Positions 18,619 to 32,754 of a DNA stretch of 50,858 nucleotides are shown here, one piece after another. The number at the start of each line of letters is the position of its first letter. The stretch's first letter is position 1. Location of the stretch: positions 1-50,858 of IMG/VR virus record IMGVR_UViG_3300045960_000023; one strand, written 5' to 3'. Position numbers and translations under genes: made by a program. Below the pieces are notes generated by a model, which was not told where the DNA came from, did not search any database, and was given only the letters and a program-made list of their open reading frames with translations. The DNA is from a virus.

Positions 18619-19959
18619 ATGGCTATCGAAATGTTAACTGTCCAACGCTCCCAGATAAGTGTGGGAGCTCGCTTTCGTGAAGACTACGGTGACCTCTCTG
18701 ACCTCGCCAATAGCATGAAATCAGAAGGTATCATCCAACCACTGGCTGTGAAGGCAGACCCTCAAAATTGTGGATTTATCCTTCTAGCTGGCGGCCGGAG
18801 AATGAAGGCTGCTGAGAAGGCAGGCATTTCTGAAATTCCCGTCCGAGTGTACCCTGCAGACATCAGCGATACCCAGATGCTTCTCATCGAACTGTGCGAG
18901 AACGTCTACCGCAAGGATATGACTTGGCTCGAGCAGACCCGCCTCCGCAAGAAGATCCATGAGCTGGGCATTGCAACTGAGGGACGTAAAGTGAGCACTA
19001 GCCCCGATGCCAAGGGCTGGTCGCAACAGAAGACAGCTGATATGACTGGCGTGAACCAGCGCATGATATCTGCTGAGCTCCAGTTAGCCGAAGCAGTTGA
19101 GGCGTTCCCTATCTTGCAACAGGCTAAGACGAGAGACGAAGCGCTCAAGATGATGAAGAAGATGAGCGAAACTATGATCCGTGGAGAGCTGGCCAAGCGC
19201 ATACAGGATAAGACTGCAAGCACTCCCATGGAGAAGCAGCTAACTGATCTGTCCAATAGGTATATCGTGGCTGACTTCTTTGATCTGGCGAAACAGTTAC
19301 CCGATAAGAGCATTGACTTCTGTGAGATCGATCCCCCTTATGCCATCGACCTGATGGGGCTGAAGAAGAAGCAGGACATCTCTCAGTACAACGAAGATAC
19401 ATACAATGAGGTGGATCAACAGGACTACCTCCACTTCATCGACCGCACTGTGCGTGAGTGCTACCGTGTCATGACTGACTCGTCGTGGCTTGTGATGTGG
19501 TTCGCTATCGAGCCTTGGATCGAAGATATGTACATGATCCTCAGCAAGGCTGGCTTCTCAACACGTCGCCTCTGTGGTATGTGGATTAAGGAGACGGGCC
19601 AGACTATGAACCCAGCTATGCACCTGGCCAACCAGTACGAACCCTTCTTCTACGCACGCAAGGGCAACGCTACGCTGATGAAACAGGGGAGAGGCAATGT
19701 CTTTCAGTACAAAGCTGTCCCGCCCACAAAGAAGATCCATCCTACAGAGCGGCCTATCGAGCTCATCCAAGAAGTTATCTCTACATTCTGTTGGGAAGGA
19801 AGTCGCATCCTTGTCCCGTTTCTCGGTAGTGGCAACACTCTGTTGGCGGCGAGCAACCTTGGGCTCACAGCCTTTGGTAGTGATCTTAGTCAGGAGTACA
19901 AAGACTCCTACGTCATGAGAGTACACACTGGGAAACCTGGAGAGTACAAATCCTATTAA
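18619..19959 (+). CDS. ParB-like domain fused to DNA methyltransferase
   Basis: 446 residues. Residues 1-100 are ParB/sulfiredoxin-like (ISVGARFREDYGDLSDLANS, then LLAGGRRMKAAEKAG and ENVYRKDMTW). Residues 105-205 are helix-turn-helix-rich. Residues 210-446 are an amino-methyltransferase: CEIDPPYAID holds the DPPY catalytic motif, and FLGSGNTLLAASNLG near residue 400 is the S-adenosylmethionine motif. The order (DPPY first, FxGxG last) is of the beta class, so N6-adenine or N4-cytosine. No restriction enzyme gene is nearby, so protection of phage DNA or regulation is more likely than restriction-modification. Confidence 0.88.
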   Translation: MAIEMLTVQRSQISVGARFREDYGDLSDLANSMKSEGIIQPLAVKADPQNCGFILLAGGRRMKAAEKAGISEIPVRVYPADISDTQMLLIELCENVYRKDMTWLEQTRLRKKIHELGIATEGRKVSTSPDAKGWSQQKTADMTGVNQRMISAELQLAEAVEAFPILQQAKTRDEALKMMKKMSETMIRGELAKRIQDKTASTPMEKQLTDLSNRYIVADFFDLAKQLPDKSIDFCEIDPPYAIDLMGLKKKQDISQYNEDTYNEVDQQDYLHFIDRTVRECYRVMTDSSWLVMWFAIEPWIEDMYMILSKAGFSTRRLCGMWIKETGQTMNPAMHLANQYEPFFYARKGNATLMKQGRGNVFQYKAVPPTKKIHPTERPIELIQEVISTFCWEGSRILVPFLGSGNTLLAASNLGLTAFGSDLSQEYKDSYVMRVHTGKPGEYKSY

Positions 19960-19969
19960 GGAGTAGCCA

Positions 19970-22507
19970 ATGAACTTAGTACCTGGCGTTGGTCCTCCTG
20001 ATGCCAAGATCATGATAGTGGGCGAGAGCTGGGGCTCCAATGAAGCTGGAGCCTTTGCGCGCACTGGTCGCCACACTCCATTCTGTGGCATGGCGGGGGA
20101 GCTGATGGACAAGCTGTTACACGCTGCTGGCATCATGCGGAGCAGTGTGTATGTTACTAACGTGATAAGAGAACAACCACCTAACAACGACGCAAGCTGC
20201 TTCATCAAGTTCGGGCCGAGTGGCCCAGCCTATACCGCGGAGTACAAAGCCTATGAACGCTATCTGTTCGAAGAGATTGCAAGGATACGTCCCAATGTAC
20301 TTGTCCCCACGGGCAATATCCCTTTGTATGCTCTTACTGGCAAGACCGCCATTACTAAGAGGCGAGGGTCAATCCTTGAGGCAACTATCGATGGACAGAC
20401 ATTTAAGGTCATTCCTACGATACATCCAGCGGCCGCCCTGCGCCAGTACATATGGACGCACTTCATTGCGTTCGACTTTAAGCGCATAAGAGAGGAGAGC
20501 AACTTCCCAGACATCCGTCTGCCTGTTCGCAAGCTGCACATCAGGCCCAGCTTTCTGGACGCTATCAACTACATGAAGCGTATCCAGAACATTACGGGCT
20601 TCGACATTGAAGTGGTCAATGAAGAGGTTAGCTGCTTCAGCCTCGCACCCGACCCCTTCGACGCCATGTCTATCCCATTGAGGGAGAGAGGCGATGACTA
20701 CTTCACCGTTGAACAGGAGGCTCAGATATGGCTGGAACTCGCTCGTATATTGCAAGACCCATCCGTACTAAAGATAGGGCAAAACATCGTCTTCGATGCT
20801 ACCTTCGTGTTCAGGAAACTTGGTTTAAGGGTGGAGCCTGTAGCAGACACAATGGTTGCCTGCGCAACCGCCTATCCAGACTTTCCAAAGGGCCTCGACT
20901 TTATAACAAGCATCTGGACGCGAGAGCCATACTACAAGGATGAGGGTAAGAAGTGGTTCAAGTTCGGTGGCAGTGATGATACGTTCTGGCAGTACAACGC
21001 TAAGGATAGTGCTGTGTGCTTCGAAGCTATGCCGAAGCTGATGGAGGAACTGGACAGACAGGTGAACGGAGATACATACGCACGACAAGTAAGCATCATC
21101 CAACCTCTTGTCTATATGCAGGAGCGTGGGATAAAGGTGGACACAAAGGGGATGCAAGATGCAAGCAAAGAAGCAGAAGAAAAACTCGCCGCCCTGGAAG
21201 CCGAGCTCCACCAAGTGTGTGGCTACCCGCTCAACGCCAACTCGCCCAAACAACTCGCGAACCACTTCTACGTCAAGAAAGGTATCAAGCCCTACGTCAA
21301 CCGCAAGACTGGTGGGGTCAGTACCGATCGTGATGCTCTTAAAAGACTTGCTAGGAAAGGACTTCGAGAAGCATCTATCATGCTTGAGTCCAGAAAGCTT
21401 AGCAAGCTTAAGGGAACTTACTATGATATGCAGCTTGACACGGATGGGAGACTGCGGTGTGCTTTCAATCCAGCTGGATCTAGGAACGGCCGTCTATCAA
21501 GTAGTCAGACAATCTTTGGAACCGGAGGTAATATGCAGAATCTACCTCCCCAGATGCTTCGGTTCCTCCTCGCGGACGAAGGGTGCATGATATACAACTT
21601 CGACCTGTCGCAAGCGGAAAACAGGATCGTTGCCTATGTTAGCCCAGAGCCTGCGATGATAGCAGCCTTTGAGCGCGGAGTTGATATTCATTCACAGACT
21701 GGTTCCATGCTGAGTGGCCTCGCCCCTGATGTTGTGAGGCAGCAGGACAAAGATGGTGTGAAGTGTGCAGTAGGTGGCGCTGATTTCACCTGGAGGTTCT
21801 GGGGAAAGAAGTGCAACCACTCATTGAACTACGATCTCGGTTACAAAAGCTTTGCCATTGTGACTGAGCTAACTGAACGAGACAGTAAACTTCTCGTGGA
21901 AAGGTACCACCATGTCTACCCAGGTGTCCGTCAGTATCACGCTTGGATCAGAGCGAAGCTCGGTAAAGATCGTACGCTCGAGAACTGCATGGGTCGTAGA
22001 CGCGTCTTCCTTGACCGCTGGGGAGATGAACTCTTTAAAGAATCCTACGCCTTCATCCCTCAGAGTACTGTCGCAGACGTCATTAACGAGCGAGGACTTA
22101 ACTATATCTATTACAACCAGTCAACCTTTAGACCTGTCGATCTCTTGAACCAGATACACGACGCTATCGCGTTCCAGATGAACTACCTATTGTTCAGTTG
22201 GGAGCAACAAGCGGAGTGTCTCCTTCGCATCAGGGACTCGCTGCAGACTCCACTGAGATGGCGGAGCACTGAGTTCGTTATCCCTGCTGACCTGTCGGTT
22301 GGCCTCTCGTTAAATAAGAAGACAATGAGCGGAGTGAAAATAAATGAGTACTCGGAAACTACCGGACTGGCTCGACGGTTATCTGAAGTATACGAAGAAC
22401 AGCGAGCCTCCGACAAGCTACAAAGCGTGGGTAGCGATCTCAGTGATGGCGAGTTGTTTGAAGAGGAAAGTGCAATTGAGCTGGGGGACGCTGACCTTTT
22501 ATCCTAA
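19970..22507 (+). CDS. Uracil-DNA glycosylase / family A DNA polymerase fusion
   Basis: 845 residues. Residues 1-175 resemble family 4/5 uracil-DNA glycosylases (VGESWGSNEAGAFARTG, PTGNIPLYALTG, TIHPAAALRQ). Residues 195-365 are a 3'-5' exonuclease (GFDIE; IGQNIVFDATF; YNAKDSAV, the usual D-E-D-D pattern). Residues 380-780 are the polymerase: motif A NFDLSQAENRI, motif B KKCNHSLNYDLGY, motif C QIHDAIAFQ. The motif C Asp is kept, but the next residue is Ala rather than the usual Glu. The last 54 residues lie out of frame over the next gene. It is probably the replicative enzyme, with uracil removal or uracil sensing attached. Confidence 0.9.
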   Translation: MNLVPGVGPPDAKIMIVGESWGSNEAGAFARTGRHTPFCGMAGELMDKLLHAAGIMRSSVYVTNVIREQPPNNDASCFIKFGPSGPAYTAEYKAYERYLFEEIARIRPNVLVPTGNIPLYALTGKTAITKRRGSILEATIDGQTFKVIPTIHPAAALRQYIWTHFIAFDFKRIREESNFPDIRLPVRKLHIRPSFLDAINYMKRIQNITGFDIEVVNEEVSCFSLAPDPFDAMSIPLRERGDDYFTVEQEAQIWLELARILQDPSVLKIGQNIVFDATFVFRKLGLRVEPVADTMVACATAYPDFPKGLDFITSIWTREPYYKDEGKKWFKFGGSDDTFWQYNAKDSAVCFEAMPKLMEELDRQVNGDTYARQVSIIQPLVYMQERGIKVDTKGMQDASKEAEEKLAALEAELHQVCGYPLNANSPKQLANHFYVKKGIKPYVNRKTGGVSTDRDALKRLARKGLREASIMLESRKLSKLKGTYYDMQLDTDGRLRCAFNPAGSRNGRLSSSQTIFGTGGNMQNLPPQMLRFLLADEGCMIYNFDLSQAENRIVAYVSPEPAMIAAFERGVDIHSQTGSMLSGLAPDVVRQQDKDGVKCAVGGADFTWRFWGKKCNHSLNYDLGYKSFAIVTELTERDSKLLVERYHHVYPGVRQYHAWIRAKLGKDRTLENCMGRRRVFLDRWGDELFKESYAFIPQSTVADVINERGLNYIYYNQSTFRPVDLLNQIHDAIAFQMNYLLFSWEQQAECLLRIRDSLQTPLRWRSTEFVIPADLSVGLSLNKKTMSGVKINEYSETTGLARRLSEVYEEQRASDKLQSVGSDLSDGELFEEESAIELGDADLLS

Positions 22508-23801: not shown

Positions 23802-24280
23802 ACATCAAGGATATGACTAAAGAGAACATGGCTGCCATCCTCGAGAGCCTGATGAAGGACGGTAAGATCATGGAGGTGGACATCATAGCCACCATGAACC
23901 CTGCTCCCTCGGAAGAGATGAAGGGCATCTGTGATCTGATCCACGGCTTCCTGTGCACCAAGGCTCACGGGGATAAGCAAGGTGAGTGTGACTACTACAT
24001 TGAAGACGCGCTCTTCGAAGGGTGGTCGCTGCCTACACATAGACAGTGGCTACAAGAGATAGGAAAGCTAATGAAGACCTACGACATAGCCTCCATTAGC
24101 GATCTTACAAATGCACTCCGCGCAGTCGCAAGTCTTGTTCGAGAGCTTAGCGAGGTTCGTAGCGTAAGTGTCAATCGCTATCGTCTTGTAGCCACTGTTG
24201 TGCATGGCTATCTAACAAACGAGTTGAAAAAGATCACTGCGCAGGCTTCGGGAACTCCTCCATTATCTCTCCCCGTCTGA
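23798..24280 (+). CDS. Last rightward gene, unknown
   Basis: 160 residues, GTG start overlapping the previous stop (GTGA). Helical throughout, with ENMAAILESLMKDGKIMEVD and a segment containing HGFLCTKAHGDKQGECDYYI, whose His and Cys residues could bind a metal. The middle (HRQWLQEIGKLMK) and end are helical. The last 47 bases overlap, tail to tail, the end of the giant late gene. No terminator hairpin is evident. Confidence 0.7.
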   Translation: MNIKDMTKENMAAILESLMKDGKIMEVDIIATMNPAPSEEMKGICDLIHGFLCTKAHGDKQGECDYYIEDALFEGWSLPTHRQWLQEIGKLMKTYDIASISDLTNALRAVASLVRELSEVRSVSVNRYRLVATVVHGYLTNELKKITAQASGTPPLSLPV

Positions 24281-27200
24281 GCATCTCTGTCTGTATAATC
24301 CTCCGCGCCTCAGGAGAGAGCATACGCATCTTCATCTCTCTCCTGATGGTGGAGGATCTAATCCCAAGTGTGAACATCTCATCCCAGACGTGAGGTGGCA
24401 CAACCTCTCCCGCGTTAAGCGCATCGACAACAGCATCTGTAACGTAGGCCTTGCGCTTGCTCAGCTGTGCAGCGTGCTGCTTCTCCCTACTCTCAAACTG
24501 CTTAATGCGAGCAGCTTCGAGGGGCTCAGCTCCCATCACCACCTTCGCAATGTCTACATTCTCCAACCGATAGATCTCTCTTCCACGCTGGTCCTTGATG
24601 ATGTAGCCATTCTGTCCAGGTGTAGCCATCTTATCAATGAGCAGCTTGGGCCACGTCTTCATCAACGGACTCACCTGCTCTGCGATGGAGGTGCTGAACT
24701 CCACACCTTCCTTGAATGTGCGAGGAGCCATCTTCTCTCCTGCCATGTAGCTCTTGAGTACATTGTTATAGGTCTTCACAATATCGCTGATGAAGGGCCC
24801 AGCCCAGTCGGACATAGACTGTGGCATCTGTAAGGCAGCTGGCCCAGTAACATCAATGCCCAGCATACCACCAACTCCACGAGATGCGCGGGGATAGTTC
24901 TTATCCATCCACTGCTCTATCTCTCCCCACCATCCGAACATCGCTAAGACAGGGGCAGCCTTGAGCATGGCTACAATAGCGCGAGGCCCACCCAGTGCAG
25001 CCTGCACCATCAAGAAGCGTCCCGCCTGGGGAGCAGACAAGTGAGCCATGAACTCCAGCTGGTTAATCATGTATGTCTTGAACTGGCCCATCGTCTTACC
25101 AACAGGCGACCTCAGGATCGAGGGCAGGTTGGCTATGTTGTAGGTGGCCTGAGAGAATACGTTCTGTTGGAACGCATAGATACGAGCCTCCGCTTCTCCC
25201 ATCCCAAGGCCTCCGTTCTTCACACTATCACGGGCCATCAGGTACGGTGCAGCTAGCCCAATAGAACGGTTCGGAATCTCAGGCCTCTCGAACATACCCA
25301 TAGGCTGTGTCCACCAGGGCAAACCCTTGAACACTTCATGCCTAGGCTTCAGCGACTCTCCCTCATGGGCAAACGTCTGGCCCATGATAGGTTCCATCTC
25401 TTTGATGAACTGCTTGCCTTCCTTAGAGGCGAGGAACTTATAGCCGGCAGAGAAATACTTAGTCCCATTCTGCGTCCACACGTTCCCCTGACCACCAAGA
25501 TAGTTGAACGCTGCAGCGATGGGCCTATATGCCAGCTTCAATATACCCTCAGCAGCACGCGCATAGGCAGCACCCTTAGTGGCCGTCATGCTGGCTGTCT
25601 CCATTCGCTCAATGCCAGTCTCTCGACCAATCCATCTGATCAGATCATCAGCTGCTTTGTCCTGCCAATGGTAGCGACCCTTAGTATCCTCAATGAGGGT
25701 GCGCAGAAACTCCTGCGTGTTCGGCTGGCCTGCGTAGTCCCTATTAATGATACCTCTGGCCTCAGCAATCAGAGGATCAAGAGCTGTCTTCCTCCTCATG
25801 GTGTATGCGTAGTTGAACAGCACACTGGAGACATCCTCTTCACCCGCCAGTGTATCGAAGCGTCTCTTCTCAAACGCACTGAACTTGTAAGTAGGCTTGA
25901 TGATGAAGAGGCCACGCACTGCACGCTTCGCAGCGAGTGTCGACTCACCCTTCGCAATCCCTTCATTGATCTCCTTGAGGATCTTATCATTGCTATCAGA
26001 GAGACGCTTGAGGACAGAGAAGTACTGTCCCTGTCCTATCCCCTGAGGCATATCCTTCATGAAGTTAGTGTCCATGTACAACTCAGCACTCGGGTCAGCT
26101 TCCTTGATGCGCTGCGCTTTACGAATAGCATCAGCCTTGCTAACACCAACTGCCACTACCTTCCCACCCACTTCCTTATCTCTCAGCACAATAGAGCCAC
26201 GCTCGAAGTGGGTCATATAGTCGGGGATGTACTTGCTCTCCAATGCCCTAAAATCATCTACGAGGCCACGCAGAACATGGGCATCCTTCTCATCAAACTT
26301 AGAGAAGATAGTCTCTGGACTATACTTCTTCTCAATAACCTGCATCAGAGCCTCATACTCCTCAGGCTTAAGGTGGCTCTTGAAGTCAGCCTTAGTGGTG
26401 GCAATCTTCTCATCCCACATCATATCTAACCAGTCTCTCAACTGTCCAGCTGCTGTGGCAACCTTCTCACTCGAAGCCTTGGCCTTGTTCTCAACTACCT
26501 TCCCCAACTCTAGGCGCCCTGCTTTGTCCAGCTGGCCGAAGATAGCATTGAGCACATCCCTATCCCCACCAGCTGCAGCAAACTTATGCACTGAGCTAAG
26601 GTCAGCCATGTTCCATCTGGTCACGAAGTCGAAGGCCTTCCCACCGATCTTCTGTGCGATACGCATAGGCTGGCGCACCTCACTCTCCCACACTCTTATC
26701 GCGTCAGGATCTGGCAACCTATCATGCAGCCACTCCTTCCCATCCTTCCCAAGCAACGCCTCCTTCAACTTGTCGGAGCCGAGAGTGGTCTTCCCATCTC
26801 GAGTGCGGCGCCACAGCTTATACAACGCCTCAGTGGCCTGCTGCCCACCCATGAAGTCGAACGTCACACCTGATCCATAGGGGCTAGGCCCATCAGCAAC
26901 AGGCTTCTGCAACACCACTACATCCTCATATCCAACTGTGTTCCTTCGCTTGACCTCATGTGCAGCTGATGTGGCGAAGCCTTCCTCCACCTTATACTGC
27001 TTGACAAACTTAAAGCCCTCAGCCTCAAGTGCTTTGGTGTGCCAGTCAGTGGCCTTCATAACCCCACCTTCAACCGCAACAGTGGAGTTGGCCTTGGGTA
27101 TGCGATCTGACTTAAACCTATCCTTCATGTTCAGTACGAAGTAACCACCAGGTTCCACGACCCTGAAGGCTTCCTTGTACGCTTCCTTATGCAACGCCTC

Positions 27201-30200
27201 ATACTCAGGGCCCCAGATCATACCACCTGTGTTGCCCTCCTTAAGCTCACCACCTGCAAATGCCTGGTAGCTCTCCGTGCGGCTAGCGCCAGTCCGTGCC
27301 ATCTCGTTGCCATAAGTGGGTGACGTCATGATAGCACCAACCGACTCATTGGGTAGATCGATCTTCCTCGCATCACCTATGATCGAGACGTCAACTCCAT
27401 TCGTCTTGTGCAGATCAGTAGTGCGCACACCACCCCAAGCTGGCTCTAGCTCATTGGCGATGACCTTCCCATCATAGCCATACTCTTTGATCTTCCCAAT
27501 ACGCCCAGTGCCACCGAATATATCTAGCACTGTCTTCACCTGCAGGCCAGATGCAAGGTCACCCATCAGCTTCTGGATACCTTGTGGATATACAGCAGGA
27601 TGCAACCTGCCACGCTTAACCATATCCCTCAGACCCTCGTAGGTCTGCTGAAGGCCGAGGCTATCAAGCGTATACTCTCGCACAGGCTGCGCATGCTTAG
27701 GGTCGAACCAGACATATGTCTCAGCGCCTCCGCCCTGAGAGACGAACTTGTTCCCAGGGATACCAGCTTCGTCTCGGAGGAACTCTGACGTTGCCTTACG
27801 AGCACCAGTGGCATGGGTATCTCCGTTGCCGAAGATCTCCCACAGCTTATACTGAACGTCGTGGCCAGTCATCTTTCCCTTAGGTTCCATTATCCTAACA
27901 ACACGCTCAGTTCCTATGCCGCTAGGCGCAACCCTTACATTACTTATCCCATACTGTCGTGATAGCCCATTGGCTAGGTTCTGAGTAAGAATCTGCCCAG
28001 CCTCTGCGATGATCTTACCCTGAGTGTGGGGGCTCTCTATGTCATATGCTAATGGCAATCCTAAGCCGTCATTGTCAACAGTTACATCTGCGCCAGCTTT
28101 AGCCGTCTCTTCACTCTTAAGCACATCCCTTAGTTGTGCAACTCTACTATCTGTCTTAAATAGAAAGTCAGGACCTTGATCTTCTACAAACCGCATATAG
28201 CTTTCGATAGTCCTACGCAAAGTGATCCTCTCATATGTACTCATTCCTTTGTAGCCAGAGGCTTTCCAAAGAGGATCTGTTACATCTGCTTTGTCCCTAA
28301 GTATATCAAGAAGCTCAGTCTCTTGTTTCAGTCTATTATGTATGAACTGCTTATACTCATCGCGAGTGATAAGGCCATCTATATACTGGCTATTTCGTTT
28401 CCTAAGCTCAGGCACCAGATCAGTAGGCACATCAACAAGATCTGCTAACCAGTCCTTATCACCACCCTTGGTCTCTTTCTTAGCGATCTTGTCAAGCGCG
28501 CCCACGATAGCTGTCCGCTGCTCAGGCTTCAGCTCTGTATCGAGGTTAAGCAACTTCTCCTCAACCTCAGGCAGGTGGCGGGTCTCGTAGACGACAGCCT
28601 TATACTTAGCGCCAACCGGCTCTTTGATCTTAACCCCATTCCCTTCATACATCATCTTAGAGAACTCATTAAGGGCATCTAGCTTCGCTTGATCCTTAGC
28701 GATCTCTTTCTTATAGGCCTCCTCCCTATGGCGATTCTCTAGTCTCATAGCCTCTAGGCTCGCAGGTGTTGCTCGGCCTTCTTGTACTGCTTGCTCTCTT
28801 CCACGCTCTAGCTTCCTACCTATGTCTAAGGAGTGCTTCATACCTTCTATCTGACGTTCCAGGTATGCACCAAACTCAACGGCCTTATTAGTGAGCACAC
28901 CTTCTATCGACTTAGGGTCTTTCATCTTGAGAAGAGTGGCAACATCCCCTATGGTATAACCATAGATCTGTGTCAAGTCGCGATTGCTAAGGGGTCGATC
29001 ACCTATCATGATAGTTCTCTCCCCACTCACACCCTCACGCTCATTCGCCTTCCTCGCTAACCTCTCAGCGTAGTTACTCTCAGCAATCTCCACCTTCTTC
29101 GTGGTATAGATACCCCACCCACGATAGGCAGCACCCTCACCAGTACCTGCATACCGCAGATCATAACCAATCTCTCCACGCTCATTAGGCATGAAGAAGA
29201 CCTTGGTTCCATGATAAGTGAGAATCCCATTCTCAGTGAGGTTAGTGTGCCACGCCTTGGACTGCTCAAACAGGTCACCAATGTTCCCCTTGATAGCAGG
29301 CCAAGCTGGGCCAGCGATCTCCTCCATCCTCTTCTTAAACGCAGGGAACTCTTTTGGCCCCTCAAGGAACAAGCCACGACCTACGAGGGAGAGGGTATCC
29401 TTATTAATATCTCGCTTAAAGATGTCCCGAGCCATCTCATACATCTGCTGCAGGCCCATGAAGTCTAGCGTGAAGCCACCCCCCTCACCAGGCAGGTCAG
29501 CTCCCATGCCTTCACTTTTCAGAAGCGCCTCGAAGTCCTCAGCCGTCTTCAGTTCCACAGTGGGCTTGGTCTCAGTAGGCACATTGGGAATATCCTCTAC
29601 GACAGCGGGCTCCTTCAGATCGAGCGTTGTGTCACTAAGCCACTCCTCAATCTCCTTATCCTCTTCAGGTGTGCGCCTCTGTCTCCGAGTGGGCTCAGGC
29701 TCAGCTGGTGCCGATGCCTCAGCGTCCCGCTTAGCGAGCTTCTGCTCAATCACCTTAAGCTGAATAAGCTCCAGGCGAGAGGGTGCAAGGTCACCATCCA
29801 GCTCCAGAGCCTTAGCATCATTAAGAGTCTGCTCTGCTTTCTCGAGCCCCTTGAGACCCTTGTCAGCTGGCTTCCTCTTAGTGAGCTCTGCAATAGCATC
29901 AGCAGCATCCTTGTTCAACAACTCAGCATGCTTAGTGTGCACCTGCTCAGGGGTCATGGCAGAGATCTCTTCAACCTTCATGCCACTCTTCTTAAGCTTA
30001 TCTATCTTCGCTTCGAAGGCTCTCTTCTTATCCACAAGGATACGAGCCTGAATGTCGAGCTGAGGTGTAGTCTCAACTGGGGCGGAGCGCTGCTCAGGGG
30101 TGAGGCCTTGTCCACGCTTGGCTATCTCTGCGTCGAGTGCTTCCTCAACCAGCTCCCTATTGAGCGCATCACGCTTATCCTCAGGCTTCATCTTCTTGAG

Positions 30201-31793
30201 GTCTTCTACATCATGCCCTCTATTAGCCAGCTCACGTCTCACAGCAAGGTCAGTCATGGGCTTCTTAACGATCCCATCCACTATGCCCTGAACCTCAGCG
30301 CGTGTGGCACCTGTGTGGGCCAGGTCTATAGCAATATCGTCAGGCACATACTTCATGCCAAACTTCTTAGAGGGGTCAATAGGCTGCTCAGCCTTCGGAG
30401 CCTTGGCCGCCTTGGGCACAACAGCTGCAGGTGCAGGCTCAACGGGGATACCTGGAACCTGTGCACCTTCAATGGGCGTAGCAACAGGCGCAGGTGGCTT
30501 CGTCTGGTCAATTCCCTTAGCCTTCGCAGCTTCAACGGCCGCCTTAATGTCAGGGTTCTTGTTGAGGAAACTTTCTGGAATAGATCCAAACACACCCTGC
30601 CCAGCCTGGGCCGCTTCTGATAGCTTAGACACACGCCCCATGAGGAGTTCCTTCTCCTTTAGAGGCGTAGCAGGGTCTCTCATCTTCGCAACAAGCTCAG
30701 CGTGGAGCGCCTGCATCTCTGCCACCCTACTAGGGTTAGCGATGCCAAAGCGCATAGCATCTGCTGTACCTTTAAAATCAGGTATGGGTTCGGCACCTTT
30801 CACCAATGATTGGTCTGAGGGTGCGGGTTTCCCCGCTTCGACCACAGGCGTCTCGGTGTCCCAGCTTGCACGCCCACCAACCTTTCCAACAGGCCCAGGA
30901 GGCGGCTCACCACCAGGGATCGTTCCTTCATAGGTCTGTCCGAAGGGCTGATTCTCCCTCAGCCACTGAGCATCCTTATACTCCACATCAGTGGCCGCTT
31001 GTGCATCTCGAACCGTCTCGTACTCTTTGAGAGCATTGGCTAGGTCAGCATCTTCTAGGATTTTCTCTCTGACTCCTTCCTTCGCCAACGCAGCGTCAAT
31101 GTCAGCATTATTGCGGAATCTGGATGCGGCCTTTCCAGTCGCCATGCTGAGACCTTTAGCCAGAACCTTGAAGGCCAAGCTAAAACCAGCTGCTCCCAGA
31201 GCAAACCCTCCGGCTTCTTCAAGTGACTTCGCCCCCCTTTCCATCAGGGTAGCTCCAGGTGTAGCACCTGCAGCTCCAACCACTGCTCCAGACAAAGCTC
31301 CATGGCCTGCGACTCTAGCGGTACCTTCAATGAGGCCAGCACCTGCACGGGGCGCTACCATTGTAGCTATCTTCTCCGCTAAGGGAACTCCAACCCTACC
31401 AAGCCCCTTGAGTGCGGCTGTACCTACTCCACCACCAGCTGCATAGAGAGGCATCTGCGGGGCGAACTCAGCAAGCCCAAATGCCAGCTGGCCCGCCATA
31501 GATGTGGGCGGTGCCTCATGTACAGCTTGATAGTCCTTGAAACTCTTCGCCTCAGCCTCCCTCGCTCTGGAGAGCTTCTCTATCCCCTCCATACCAAGCA
31601 GGTTGGCGATGTTACCTGTCGTCTCGAATAGCTTCGCACCACCAGTCTGCAGGGCACCAGTCAGGTACGTGCCGAAGCTCGGCTCCTCTTTCGGTTTAGA
31701 CTGCTGTTGAATAAAGGCAGCGATCTCATCATCGCTCTTATCAGCCAGAGCATCTGGCACGTCGTAGACGTTATCGTACAGTTGTACTTTCAT
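24234..31793 (-). CDS. Giant polyvalent virion protein with ART-like and methyltransferase domains
   Basis: 2519 residues, the last gene of the late unit. The N-terminus (1-60) is followed by Gly/Ala-rich hydrophobic helices (about 95-215) and a Pro-rich, charged linker (to about 770). Near 855-920 an ADP-ribosyltransferase-like region has TYHGTKVFF and GTGEGAAYRGWGIYTT. Near 1415-1640 there is a Rossmann methyltransferase with DIFGGTGRIG and TSPTYGN (a variant of the SPPY motif). The C-terminal third is helical, and the stretch around 2170-2300 (RPEIPNRSIGLAAPY, MGQFKTYMINQLEF) resembles the LPD38-type end of polyvalent proteins. Such proteins are thought to be ejected with the DNA and to act on the host. 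A GLQQ/GGQQ-centred motif recurs three times at the domain borders. Confidence 0.85.
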   Translation of the reverse strand: MKVQLYDNVYDVPDALADKSDDEIAAFIQQQSKPKEEPSFGTYLTGALQTGGAKLFETTGNIANLLGMEGIEKLSRAREAEAKSFKDYQAVHEAPPTSMAGQLAFGLAEFAPQMPLYAAGGGVGTAALKGLGRVGVPLAEKIATMVAPRAGAGLIEGTARVAGHGALSGAVVGAAGATPGATLMERGAKSLEEAGGFALGAAGFSLAFKVLAKGLSMATGKAASRFRNNADIDAALAKEGVREKILEDADLANALKEYETVRDAQAATDVEYKDAQWLRENQPFGQTYEGTIPGGEPPPGPVGKVGGRASWDTETPVVEAGKPAPSDQSLVKGAEPIPDFKGTADAMRFGIANPSRVAEMQALHAELVAKMRDPATPLKEKELLMGRVSKLSEAAQAGQGVFGSIPESFLNKNPDIKAAVEAAKAKGIDQTKPPAPVATPIEGAQVPGIPVEPAPAAVVPKAAKAPKAEQPIDPSKKFGMKYVPDDIAIDLAHTGATRAEVQGIVDGIVKKPMTDLAVRRELANRGHDVEDLKKMKPEDKRDALNRELVEEALDAEIAKRGQGLTPEQRSAPVETTPQLDIQARILVDKKRAFEAKIDKLKKSGMKVEEISAMTPEQVHTKHAELLNKDAADAIAELTKRKPADKGLKGLEKAEQTLNDAKALELDGDLAPSRLELIQLKVIEQKLAKRDAEASAPAEPEPTRRQRRTPEEDKEIEEWLSDTTLDLKEPAVVEDIPNVPTETKPTVELKTAEDFEALLKSEGMGADLPGEGGGFTLDFMGLQQMYEMARDIFKRDINKDTLSLVGRGLFLEGPKEFPAFKKRMEEIAGPAWPAIKGNIGDLFEQSKAWHTNLTENGILTYHGTKVFFMPNERGEIGYDLRYAGTGEGAAYRGWGIYTTKKVEIAESNYAERLARKANEREGVSGERTIMIGDRPLSNRDLTQIYGYTIGDVATLLKMKDPKSIEGVLTNKAVEFGAYLERQIEGMKHSLDIGRKLERGREQAVQEGRATPASLEAMRLENRHREEAYKKEIAKDQAKLDALNEFSKMMYEGNGVKIKEPVGAKYKAVVYETRHLPEVEEKLLNLDTELKPEQRTAIVGALDKIAKKETKGGDKDWLADLVDVPTDLVPELRKRNSQYIDGLITRDEYKQFIHNRLKQETELLDILRDKADVTDPLWKASGYKGMSTYERITLRRTIESYMRFVEDQGPDFLFKTDSRVAQLRDVLKSEETAKAGADVTVDNDGLGLPLAYDIESPHTQGKIIAEAGQILTQNLANGLSRQYGISNVRVAPSGIGTERVVRIMEPKGKMTGHDVQYKLWEIFGNGDTHATGARKATSEFLRDEAGIPGNKFVSQGGGAETYVWFDPKHAQPVREYTLDSLGLQQTYEGLRDMVKRGRLHPAVYPQGIQKLMGDLASGLQVKTVLDIFGGTGRIGKIKEYGYDGKVIANELEPAWGGVRTTDLHKTNGVDVSIIGDARKIDLPNESVGAIMTSPTYGNEMARTGASRTESYQAFAGGELKEGNTGGMIWGPEYEALHKEAYKEAFRVVEPGGYFVLNMKDRFKSDRIPKANSTVAVEGGVMKATDWHTKALEAEGFKFVKQYKVEEGFATSAAHEVKRRNTVGYEDVVVLQKPVADGPSPYGSGVTFDFMGGQQATEALYKLWRRTRDGKTTLGSDKLKEALLGKDGKEWLHDRLPDPDAIRVWESEVRQPMRIAQKIGGKAFDFVTRWNMADLSSVHKFAAAGGDRDVLNAIFGQLDKAGRLELGKVVENKAKASSEKVATAAGQLRDWLDMMWDEKIATTKADFKSHLKPEEYEALMQVIEKKYSPETIFSKFDEKDAHVLRGLVDDFRALESKYIPDYMTHFERGSIVLRDKEVGGKVVAVGVSKADAIRKAQRIKEADPSAELYMDTNFMKDMPQGIGQGQYFSVLKRLSDSNDKILKEINEGIAKGESTLAAKRAVRGLFIIKPTYKFSAFEKRRFDTLAGEEDVSSVLFNYAYTMRRKTALDPLIAEARGIINRDYAGQPNTQEFLRTLIEDTKGRYHWQDKAADDLIRWIGRETGIERMETASMTATKGAAYARAAEGILKLAYRPIAAAFNYLGGQGNVWTQNGTKYFSAGYKFLASKEGKQFIKEMEPIMGQTFAHEGESLKPRHEVFKGLPWWTQPMGMFERPEIPNRSIGLAAPYLMARDSVKNGGLGMGEAEARIYAFQQNVFSQATYNIANLPSILRSPVGKTMGQFKTYMINQLEFMAHLSAPQAGRFLMVQAALGGPRAIVAMLKAAPVLAMFGWWGEIEQWMDKNYPRASRGVGGMLGIDVTGPAALQMPQSMSDWAGPFISDIVKTYNNVLKSYMAGEKMAPRTFKEGVEFSTSIAEQVSPLMKTWPKLLIDKMATPGQNGYIIKDQRGREIYRLENVDIAKVVMGAEPLEAARIKQFESREKQHAAQLSKRKAYVTDAVVDALNAGEVVPPHVWDEMFTLGIRSSTIRREMKMRMLSPEARRIIQTEMLRRGEIMEEFPKPAQ
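30802..30814. promoter_or_regulatory. Dispersed palindrome copy 8 (ACCAATGATTGGT), intragenic
   Basis: Lies inside the giant gene (near residue 328, encoding part of SDQSLVKG), in the low-complexity linker. It is followed by CTGAG, so the GATAG flank is missing here. It could be a roadblock site or chance. Confidence 0.4.
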
Positions 31794-31809
31794 TGCTAGG
31801 ACTCACCTC

Positions 31810-32754
31810 CTATGCGCCAGTGTCAGGGGGATTGGCAACAGCACCGCCAACCTCAGTGTCCCACATCTTCTTCTTCAGCCACCTAAAGGGGGCGGTGAAG
31901 TCGGTCTCCGGATTAGCCACAGCACCTGGCAGCCCTGCGCTAGCGGGTGCACCTGGAGCAGGAGCTGGGGTGGGCTTAATGACACGCGGCTTGCTCTCAT
32001 CAGCACCCTTGAGCACCTTGTAGTTCTCAGGCCCATACATCTTGATGCCAATCTGGTCTCGCATCTTAAGGGCCATCTGCAGAGCATCCTCTTGCTCCGC
32101 ACTCCTCGGCCCACTTATCCCATTAAGCATCCACGTACCAAGCTGACGCCCAGCCTGTTGGTCTCCAGCCTTCGCTGCTTTCTGCACAGCATCCCACTCC
32201 AACTGAGTAGGGATAGCTTTGAAGGAGAGGGCATCCTTATTATACTTCTCGAAGAGGCCAGCCCACTTGATCAGCTCATTCTGCTGACCCTGCTTGCCTG
32301 CCATAGCCATCGTCGACTCCCAGTGCATGGCAGCTACGATAAGCTTCTCGAGATTGTCTCGGCCATAGACCTTAGCCAACTCACCAAGATCTCCAATGCC
32401 TGTGAACCGCTTAAGCAGAGGCGGAGCTGCGACACCAGAGAATGCCTCAGCACCCTTGGTACGCATATCCTCTCTGAACTGTTCCAGCTCTTGATAAGCC
32501 TTCCCAGTTGCCTCAGGCCCAGCTTGCGCCTTAGCAATCTCATGAGCCATGAACTCAGCCGAACGCTGGAAGTCATGAAGGTTCGCAGCTGCAAACGCCT
32601 GTGCAGCCTGAGCGTTATTCTTGTTAGCCTCACTGGGCAGCATAAGCGCGGCCATCTGCTGCTTATAAACATCAACTGCACTCTTAGTGATCTCAGTGCG
32701 CTCTGCGGGAGAGAGTGCTCCAAGTGCCAACCTGTTTGCAATTCCCTGCACCAT
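31810..32754 (-). CDS. Internal virion protein candidate
   Basis: 314 residues, Ala-rich and largely helical (SPAERTEITKSAVDVYKQQM and onward), with a Pro/Ala-rich linker near residues 265-290 and a C-terminal amphipathic end (FRWLKKKMWDTEVGG). The ATG has no clear ribosome-binding site, so the true start could be a non-standard codon up to nine codons upstream, or translation may be coupled. Position just before the giant gene suggests a structural ejection protein, by analogy with podovirus internal proteins. No sequence family is recognised. Confidence 0.65.
   Translation of the reverse strand: MVQGIANRLALGALSPAERTEITKSAVDVYKQQMAALMLPSEANKNNAQAAQAFAAANLHDFQRSAEFMAHEIAKAQAGPEATGKAYQELEQFREDMRTKGAEAFSGVAAPPLLKRFTGIGDLGELAKVYGRDNLEKLIVAAMHWESTMAMAGKQGQQNELIKWAGLFEKYNKDALSFKAIPTQLEWDAVQKAAKAGDQQAGRQLGTWMLNGISGPRSAEQEDALQMALKMRDQIGIKMYGPENYKVLKGADESKPRVIKPTPAPAPGAPASAGLPGAVANPETDFTAPFRWLKKKMWDTEVGGAVANPPDTGA

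Follow-up and report, generated by a model that had tools for sequence, protein, structure and literature searches.

A putative virion-borne polyvalent protein of 2519 residues and an apparent effector slot with a recurring boundary motif in a group of phages

What kind of protein is encoded by a single gene that takes up 14.9% of a viral genome, and when in infection would it act? The window (the whole stretch of DNA analysed, an IMG/VR virus record of 50.9 kb) carries such a gene, P0001, at 24234..31793 on the minus strand. It opens with ATG, runs for 2519 residues without an internal stop and covers 7560 of the 50858 bases, so the original prediction of one 2519-residue gene taking ~15% of the genome holds. 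A Shine-Dalgarno-like AGGAGGTGA can be read 5' of the start codon (31803..31811, minus strand). The ends of the record form a 154-bp direct terminal repeat, its copies 99% identical, which is consistent with a complete genome. The capsid and portal proteins are SU10-like, and the nearest named phage, Desulfofustis phage LS06-2018-MD01 (terminase 44%, capsid 51%), has the same gene plan. P0001 closes a long co-directional run of structural genes, that for the major capsid protein among them, and faces a DUF3987 gene.

The replication genes of the window include a fusion of uracil-DNA glycosylase (UDG) with DNA polymerase A and a ParB-methyltransferase protein. In the former (19970-22507, plus strand) the UDG domain is joined to the N-terminus of the polymerase, and the related locus L002 has a gene of the same fusion length in the same place. 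In the latter (18619-19959, plus strand) a ParB N-terminal domain is fused to an N6/N4 DNA methyltransferase, likewise conserved in L002. A 23-bp palindrome (about CTATCACCAATSATTGGTGATAG) also occurs ten times in the genome, where 0.06 copies would be expected by chance. The copies, 23 bp each, lie at 2141, 6863, 8526, 10715, 13925, 18132, 23519, 30797, 37644 and 45518, mostly at gene ends and once inside P0001; a search of the fetched relatives did not find the palindrome. It is a putative operator-like or parS-like site, in a phage that also encodes a ParB-domain protein.

Relatives were gathered by searching with the neighbouring DUF3987 gene, which gave 34 loci. At 20 of these the adjacent giant gene has a conserved pre-block and a likewise conserved core that we term type A (865 profile positions); the variable part that separates the two is the slot. 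Domains found across 26 syntenic giants were LPD23 (8), SLT lysozyme (3), ART-PolyVal (2) and methyltransferase (2), and three giants matched the PHROG of internal virion proteins that contain an endolysin domain. The type-A core model (pLDDT 69.6) matches in fold numerous viral proteins whose annotation is that of a large polyvalent protein; searched against the PDB, it gave nothing below E 0.1. Judged by its sequence, P0001 is itself polyvalent, joining at least two disparate domains in one chain: an ADP-ribosyltransferase (ART), an amino-methyltransferase (MTase) and a virion-type C-terminus. This architecture, in its structural-gene context, agrees with what had been predicted. The N-terminal region, residues 1-770 (29484..31793, minus strand), is glycine/alanine-rich and mildly hydrophobic at ~194-215; a search for its relatives found none.

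The ART consists of two colinear halves, residues 855-911 with H861 and Y896 and residues 1312-1373 with D1364, between which ~400 residues are inserted. Scored against the ART modules of related giants, residues 855-911 reach a profile score of 36.7, whereas non-overlapping windows elsewhere in P0001, scored by the same profiles as a control, reach at most 13. Likewise, residues 1330-1374 score 29.0 and their non-overlapping windows at most 18. As delimited here, the first half spans residues 855-930 (29004..29231, minus strand; H861, GTGEGA, Y896) and the second, residues 1312-1373 (27675..27860, minus strand), runs from TSEFLRDEAGIPGN to YVWFDP and includes D1364. The insert region, residues 931-1311 (27861..29003, minus strand), has predicted coiled helices at ~960-1048 (local pLDDT 70-85), and at residues ~1078-1105 we infer a probable ART strand. 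An insert of similar length interrupts the ART of L031. Thus an ART-like module had rightly been proposed, by profile, and its proposed limits of 780-930 were wrong, since the second half lies at ~1312-1373; the claim that 930-1370 lacks a recognisable domain fails, as that region contains this half plus inserts.

H861, Y896 and D1364 align with the ART modules of relatives and fall at the H-Y-D positions of polyvalent ARTs (strands 1, 2 and 5) described in PMC5512222. All three are intact in P0001. The Pfam family PF18760 (ART-PolyVal / Tox-ART-HYD2) does not match P0001 at E <= 1 and does match the relatives L034 and L022; we therefore term the P0001 module ART-like by profile and not a Pfam member. 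AlphaFold modelling of the region, from an alignment of two sequences, gave a pLDDT of 36, so the call rests on profile comparison and not on fold. Together these comparisons indicate that residues 855-1373 carry a putative ART of the H-Y-D type. A viral scan with the ART region returned nothing beyond L006 and L007.

Downstream lies an N6/N4 amino-MTase, residues 1388-1631 (26901..27632, minus strand), with motif I DIFGGTGRIG at 1424-1433 and motif IV SPTYGN at 1491-1496. PF01555 matches the module alone at 26.8 bits, narrowly above the cut-off of 26.7, and the whole protein at 21.3. A profile search matched the PvuII m4C MTase at 1e-6, in its C-terminal motif I region, as well as other amino-MTases; weaker matches include some tRNA methyltransferases. 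Motif I comes before motif IV, an order permuted relative to PvuII. The sole close relative found occupies the same slot of L012/L002, is 56% identical and keeps SPTYGN. Taken with the PF01555 and PvuII matches, it bears out the methyltransferase-like module of the original prediction. That prediction had also singled out SPTY in place of SPPY. The letters are there, at residues 1491-1494 (the PF01555-type motif IV pattern is [SND]PP[YFW]), but free-standing homologues of Vibrio phages eugene and helene read SPPTYGN; together with its conservation in L012 this makes SPTY a subfamily trait rather than a defect. We infer that the enzyme probably methylates DNA, to m4C or m6A. A genome scan with the MTase pair found no relatives. 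A PADLOC match to mad2 (E 3e-9) was rejected as a link to MADS defence, since the mad2 model matches 14 of 14 control genomes, and we take the hit as a general MTase match. Both Vibrio phage homologues (L003:5992-6628 and L004:3992-4627) are interrupted at the same place, exactly at the SPPTYGN motif, by a frameshift or stops, which may be either decay or a shared sequencing fault.

Such interruptions raise the question of whether P0001 serves chiefly in structure or as an ejection channel, with an ART and an MTase that are decayed, non-catalytic passengers. The ART letters are indeed degraded by alignment in three relatives (Y to N and D to N in L022, Y to H and D to N in L034, D to A in L031), and the slots of L035 and L024 are almost empty; with the interrupted Vibrio phage genes, these losses favour decay. 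P0001, in contrast, keeps all three ART letters and both MTase motifs, and its MTase is 56% identical to that of the related giant P0002, versus 43% for PolA and 46% for DUF3987 in the same two viruses, as would be seen under selection. We consider decay unlikely. Beyond the MTase module, no likeness between P0001 and P0002 could be detected.

The last ~670 residues of P0001 have counterparts only in L006 and L007 (31%), and residues 1841-2512 (24258..26273, minus strand) form a core common to these giants that we term type B. A viral scan with it found nothing beyond the same two. Profile windows gave no signal between the type-A and type-B cores, which we accordingly do not call homologous. 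Within the type-B core, residues 2167-2251 (25041..25295, minus strand) are related to positions 308-386 of the 681 in the NCBIfam model tail-700 (PLxRFG; NF032893), at 27.2 bits and E 1.3e-6, below the curated cut-off of 100 bits. The segment is matched in all three type-B giants, and the PLxRFG motif itself was sought in P0001 and is absent; by sequence, P0001 is a distant relative of this family and not a member. Pseudomonas phage H66 gp60 (3787 aa) matches tail-700 at 802 bits, and its database record notes that it is a virion part, verified by mass spectrometry. Although indirect, and covering ~80 residues only (hmmsearch E ~1e-8 vs one protein), the relation to H66 gp60 is the strongest indication that P0001 may be a virion protein. 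The ejection-type helices proposed earlier find their counterpart in this helical C-terminus, which is like that of virion giants and tail-700-related at 2167-2251. LPD38 (PF18857) does not match the window; the Desulfofustis phage and Bacillus phage Page do match it.

Were P0001 a late intracellular enzyme fusion that is absent from virions, its place at the end of the structural run would be hard to account for, as would the SLT and internal-virion-protein domains of three syntenic homologues and the tail-700 relationship to the virion-verified H66 gp60. We regard such a fusion as improbable. The explanation that we favour, and hold to be probable, is that P0001 is a polyvalent protein carried in the virion and ejected from it, with an ART and an MTase that would be active early and with modules that are exchanged in a motif-bounded slot. 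P0001 would be expressed late, together with the capsid proteins, and its helical C-terminal core would build it into the virion. It would then leave the virion with the DNA, so the attached enzymes would work early in infection. The ART, through H861, Y896 and D1364, would probably modify a host protein; the amino-MTase would probably methylate DNA, most simply the incoming phage DNA, and so blunt restriction. Homology and gene position underlie the virion half of this mechanism, and conserved catalytic letters the enzymatic half.

Slot length in the type-A giants ranges from 42 residues (L035) to ~850 (L012, L031). Slot contents include LPD23, accompanied in several giants by an HExxH-bearing, peptidase-like region, as well as ART, MTase and unknown modules. 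One module of ~500 aa is common to three giants (L012:15123-16718, L027:13842-15425, L030:9114-10541) and has distant matches in cyanophages and one Pelagibacter phage. A Pfam search gave no convincing match for it in L012 and L027, and we regard it as a candidate unknown effector. Together the comparisons indicate that related phages exchange putative effector modules in the slot that separates the N-terminal part from the core.

A short motif recurs at the module boundaries. In P0001 it precedes the ART (copy 1, residues 773-786, GFTLDFMGLQQMYE, 29436..29477), separates the ART from the MTase (copy 2, residues 1373-1386, EYTLDSLGLQQTYE, 27636..27677) and separates the MTase from the C-terminal part (copy 3, residues 1640-1655, GSGVTFDFMGGQQATE, 26829..26876), all on the minus strand. 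A pattern scan in all six frames found no further copy in the window. The original prediction had missed all three copies. We rejected a chance repeat, since two equally strong self-matches (BLOSUM >= 44 over 14 residues) occurred in 0 of 60 protein shuffles. The counterpart in relatives is LYSGIPID-like. Counted by eye, 18 of the 20 type-A giants have it at the core junction (weakly in L015 and L025) and 12 have it directly after the pre-block, and it also lies between modules in multi-module members; the two giants that lack it at the core junction have almost empty slots.

Is the motif a joint, or merely a flexible linker at which joins are permitted, with no role in recombination, docking or processing? 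In the type-A core model it falls within the low-confidence first 10 residues, as a flexible linker might. A search for gene conversion among the P0001 copies found no codon excess (12 of 19 codons the same, ~10.4 expected); the codons differ as much as expected, so the likeness in the window is at the protein level, without codon-level homogenisation, which again favours a linker. Copies are more alike within than between genes (mean BLOSUM 24.7 vs 16.3), a modest effect with a permutation p of 0.024 when the window and close pairs are left out; the statistic is indicative only, as the motif list was hand-curated. Against a mere linker stand the near-constant presence of the motif at the core junction and the breakpoints of close relatives. 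The slots of L034 and L036 differ in content; the DNA that flanks them is 87% identical on one side and 96% on the other, and identity restarts at the motif-encoding DNA. Between L017 and L018, protein identity is 80% until just past the motif, after which the two diverge. Furthermore, two motif copies of L031 have 20 nucleotides in common, and two of L034 have 15. We give the mere linker somewhat less than an even chance. The breakpoints we read as module exchange at the motif, which could reflect either recombination at motif DNA or selection that keeps only the joins made there. Our tentative proposal is that these virion-ejected giants have one effector slot in which the motif serves as a working joint for module insertion and exchange, possibly also as a docking or processing signal for packaging, threading and release.

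Phage polyvalent proteins were described by Iyer et al. 2017 (PMC5512222). Like P0001 they are very large chains that combine unrelated activities, the H-Y-D ART among them, and like the P0001 family they have LPD domains, a structural-gene context and predicted delivery with the DNA. Their MTases are mostly of the EcoKI/TaqI NPPY type and come with a helicase, whereas P0001 has a different amino-MTase, with SPTY. H66 gp60 and other PLxRFG/tail-700 giants (NF032893) resemble P0001 in coming last among the structural genes, in having an MTase domain and in the related C-terminal segment; unlike them, P0001 has no PLxRFG motif and different modules, and only ~80 residues are detectably related. 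The giant of Desulfofustis phage LS06-2018-MD01 (OP947158, 1577 aa) sits in the same genomic slot as P0001 and has a type-A core with LPD38 and a near-empty effector slot, in contrast to the type-B core of P0001. T4 Alt, an ART that is carried in the virion and modifies a host protein (PMC5512222), compares in its way of working only; it is a single enzyme of the R-S-E clade, outside the P0001 family. No description of the boundary motif was found in the literature searched, and the text of PMC5512222 mentions no linker or domain boundary. As far as these sources show, polyvalent proteins as a kind were already known, and the exchange slot with its boundary motif in one phage group is new.

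Polyvalent proteins have been defined by their domain content. A single slot, its nearly empty state and a motif make module exchange testable in this group. At least one slot module, that of ~500 aa in L012, L027 and L030, escaped Pfam recognition, and reading what lies between two motif copies may offer a simple route to unknown early effectors.
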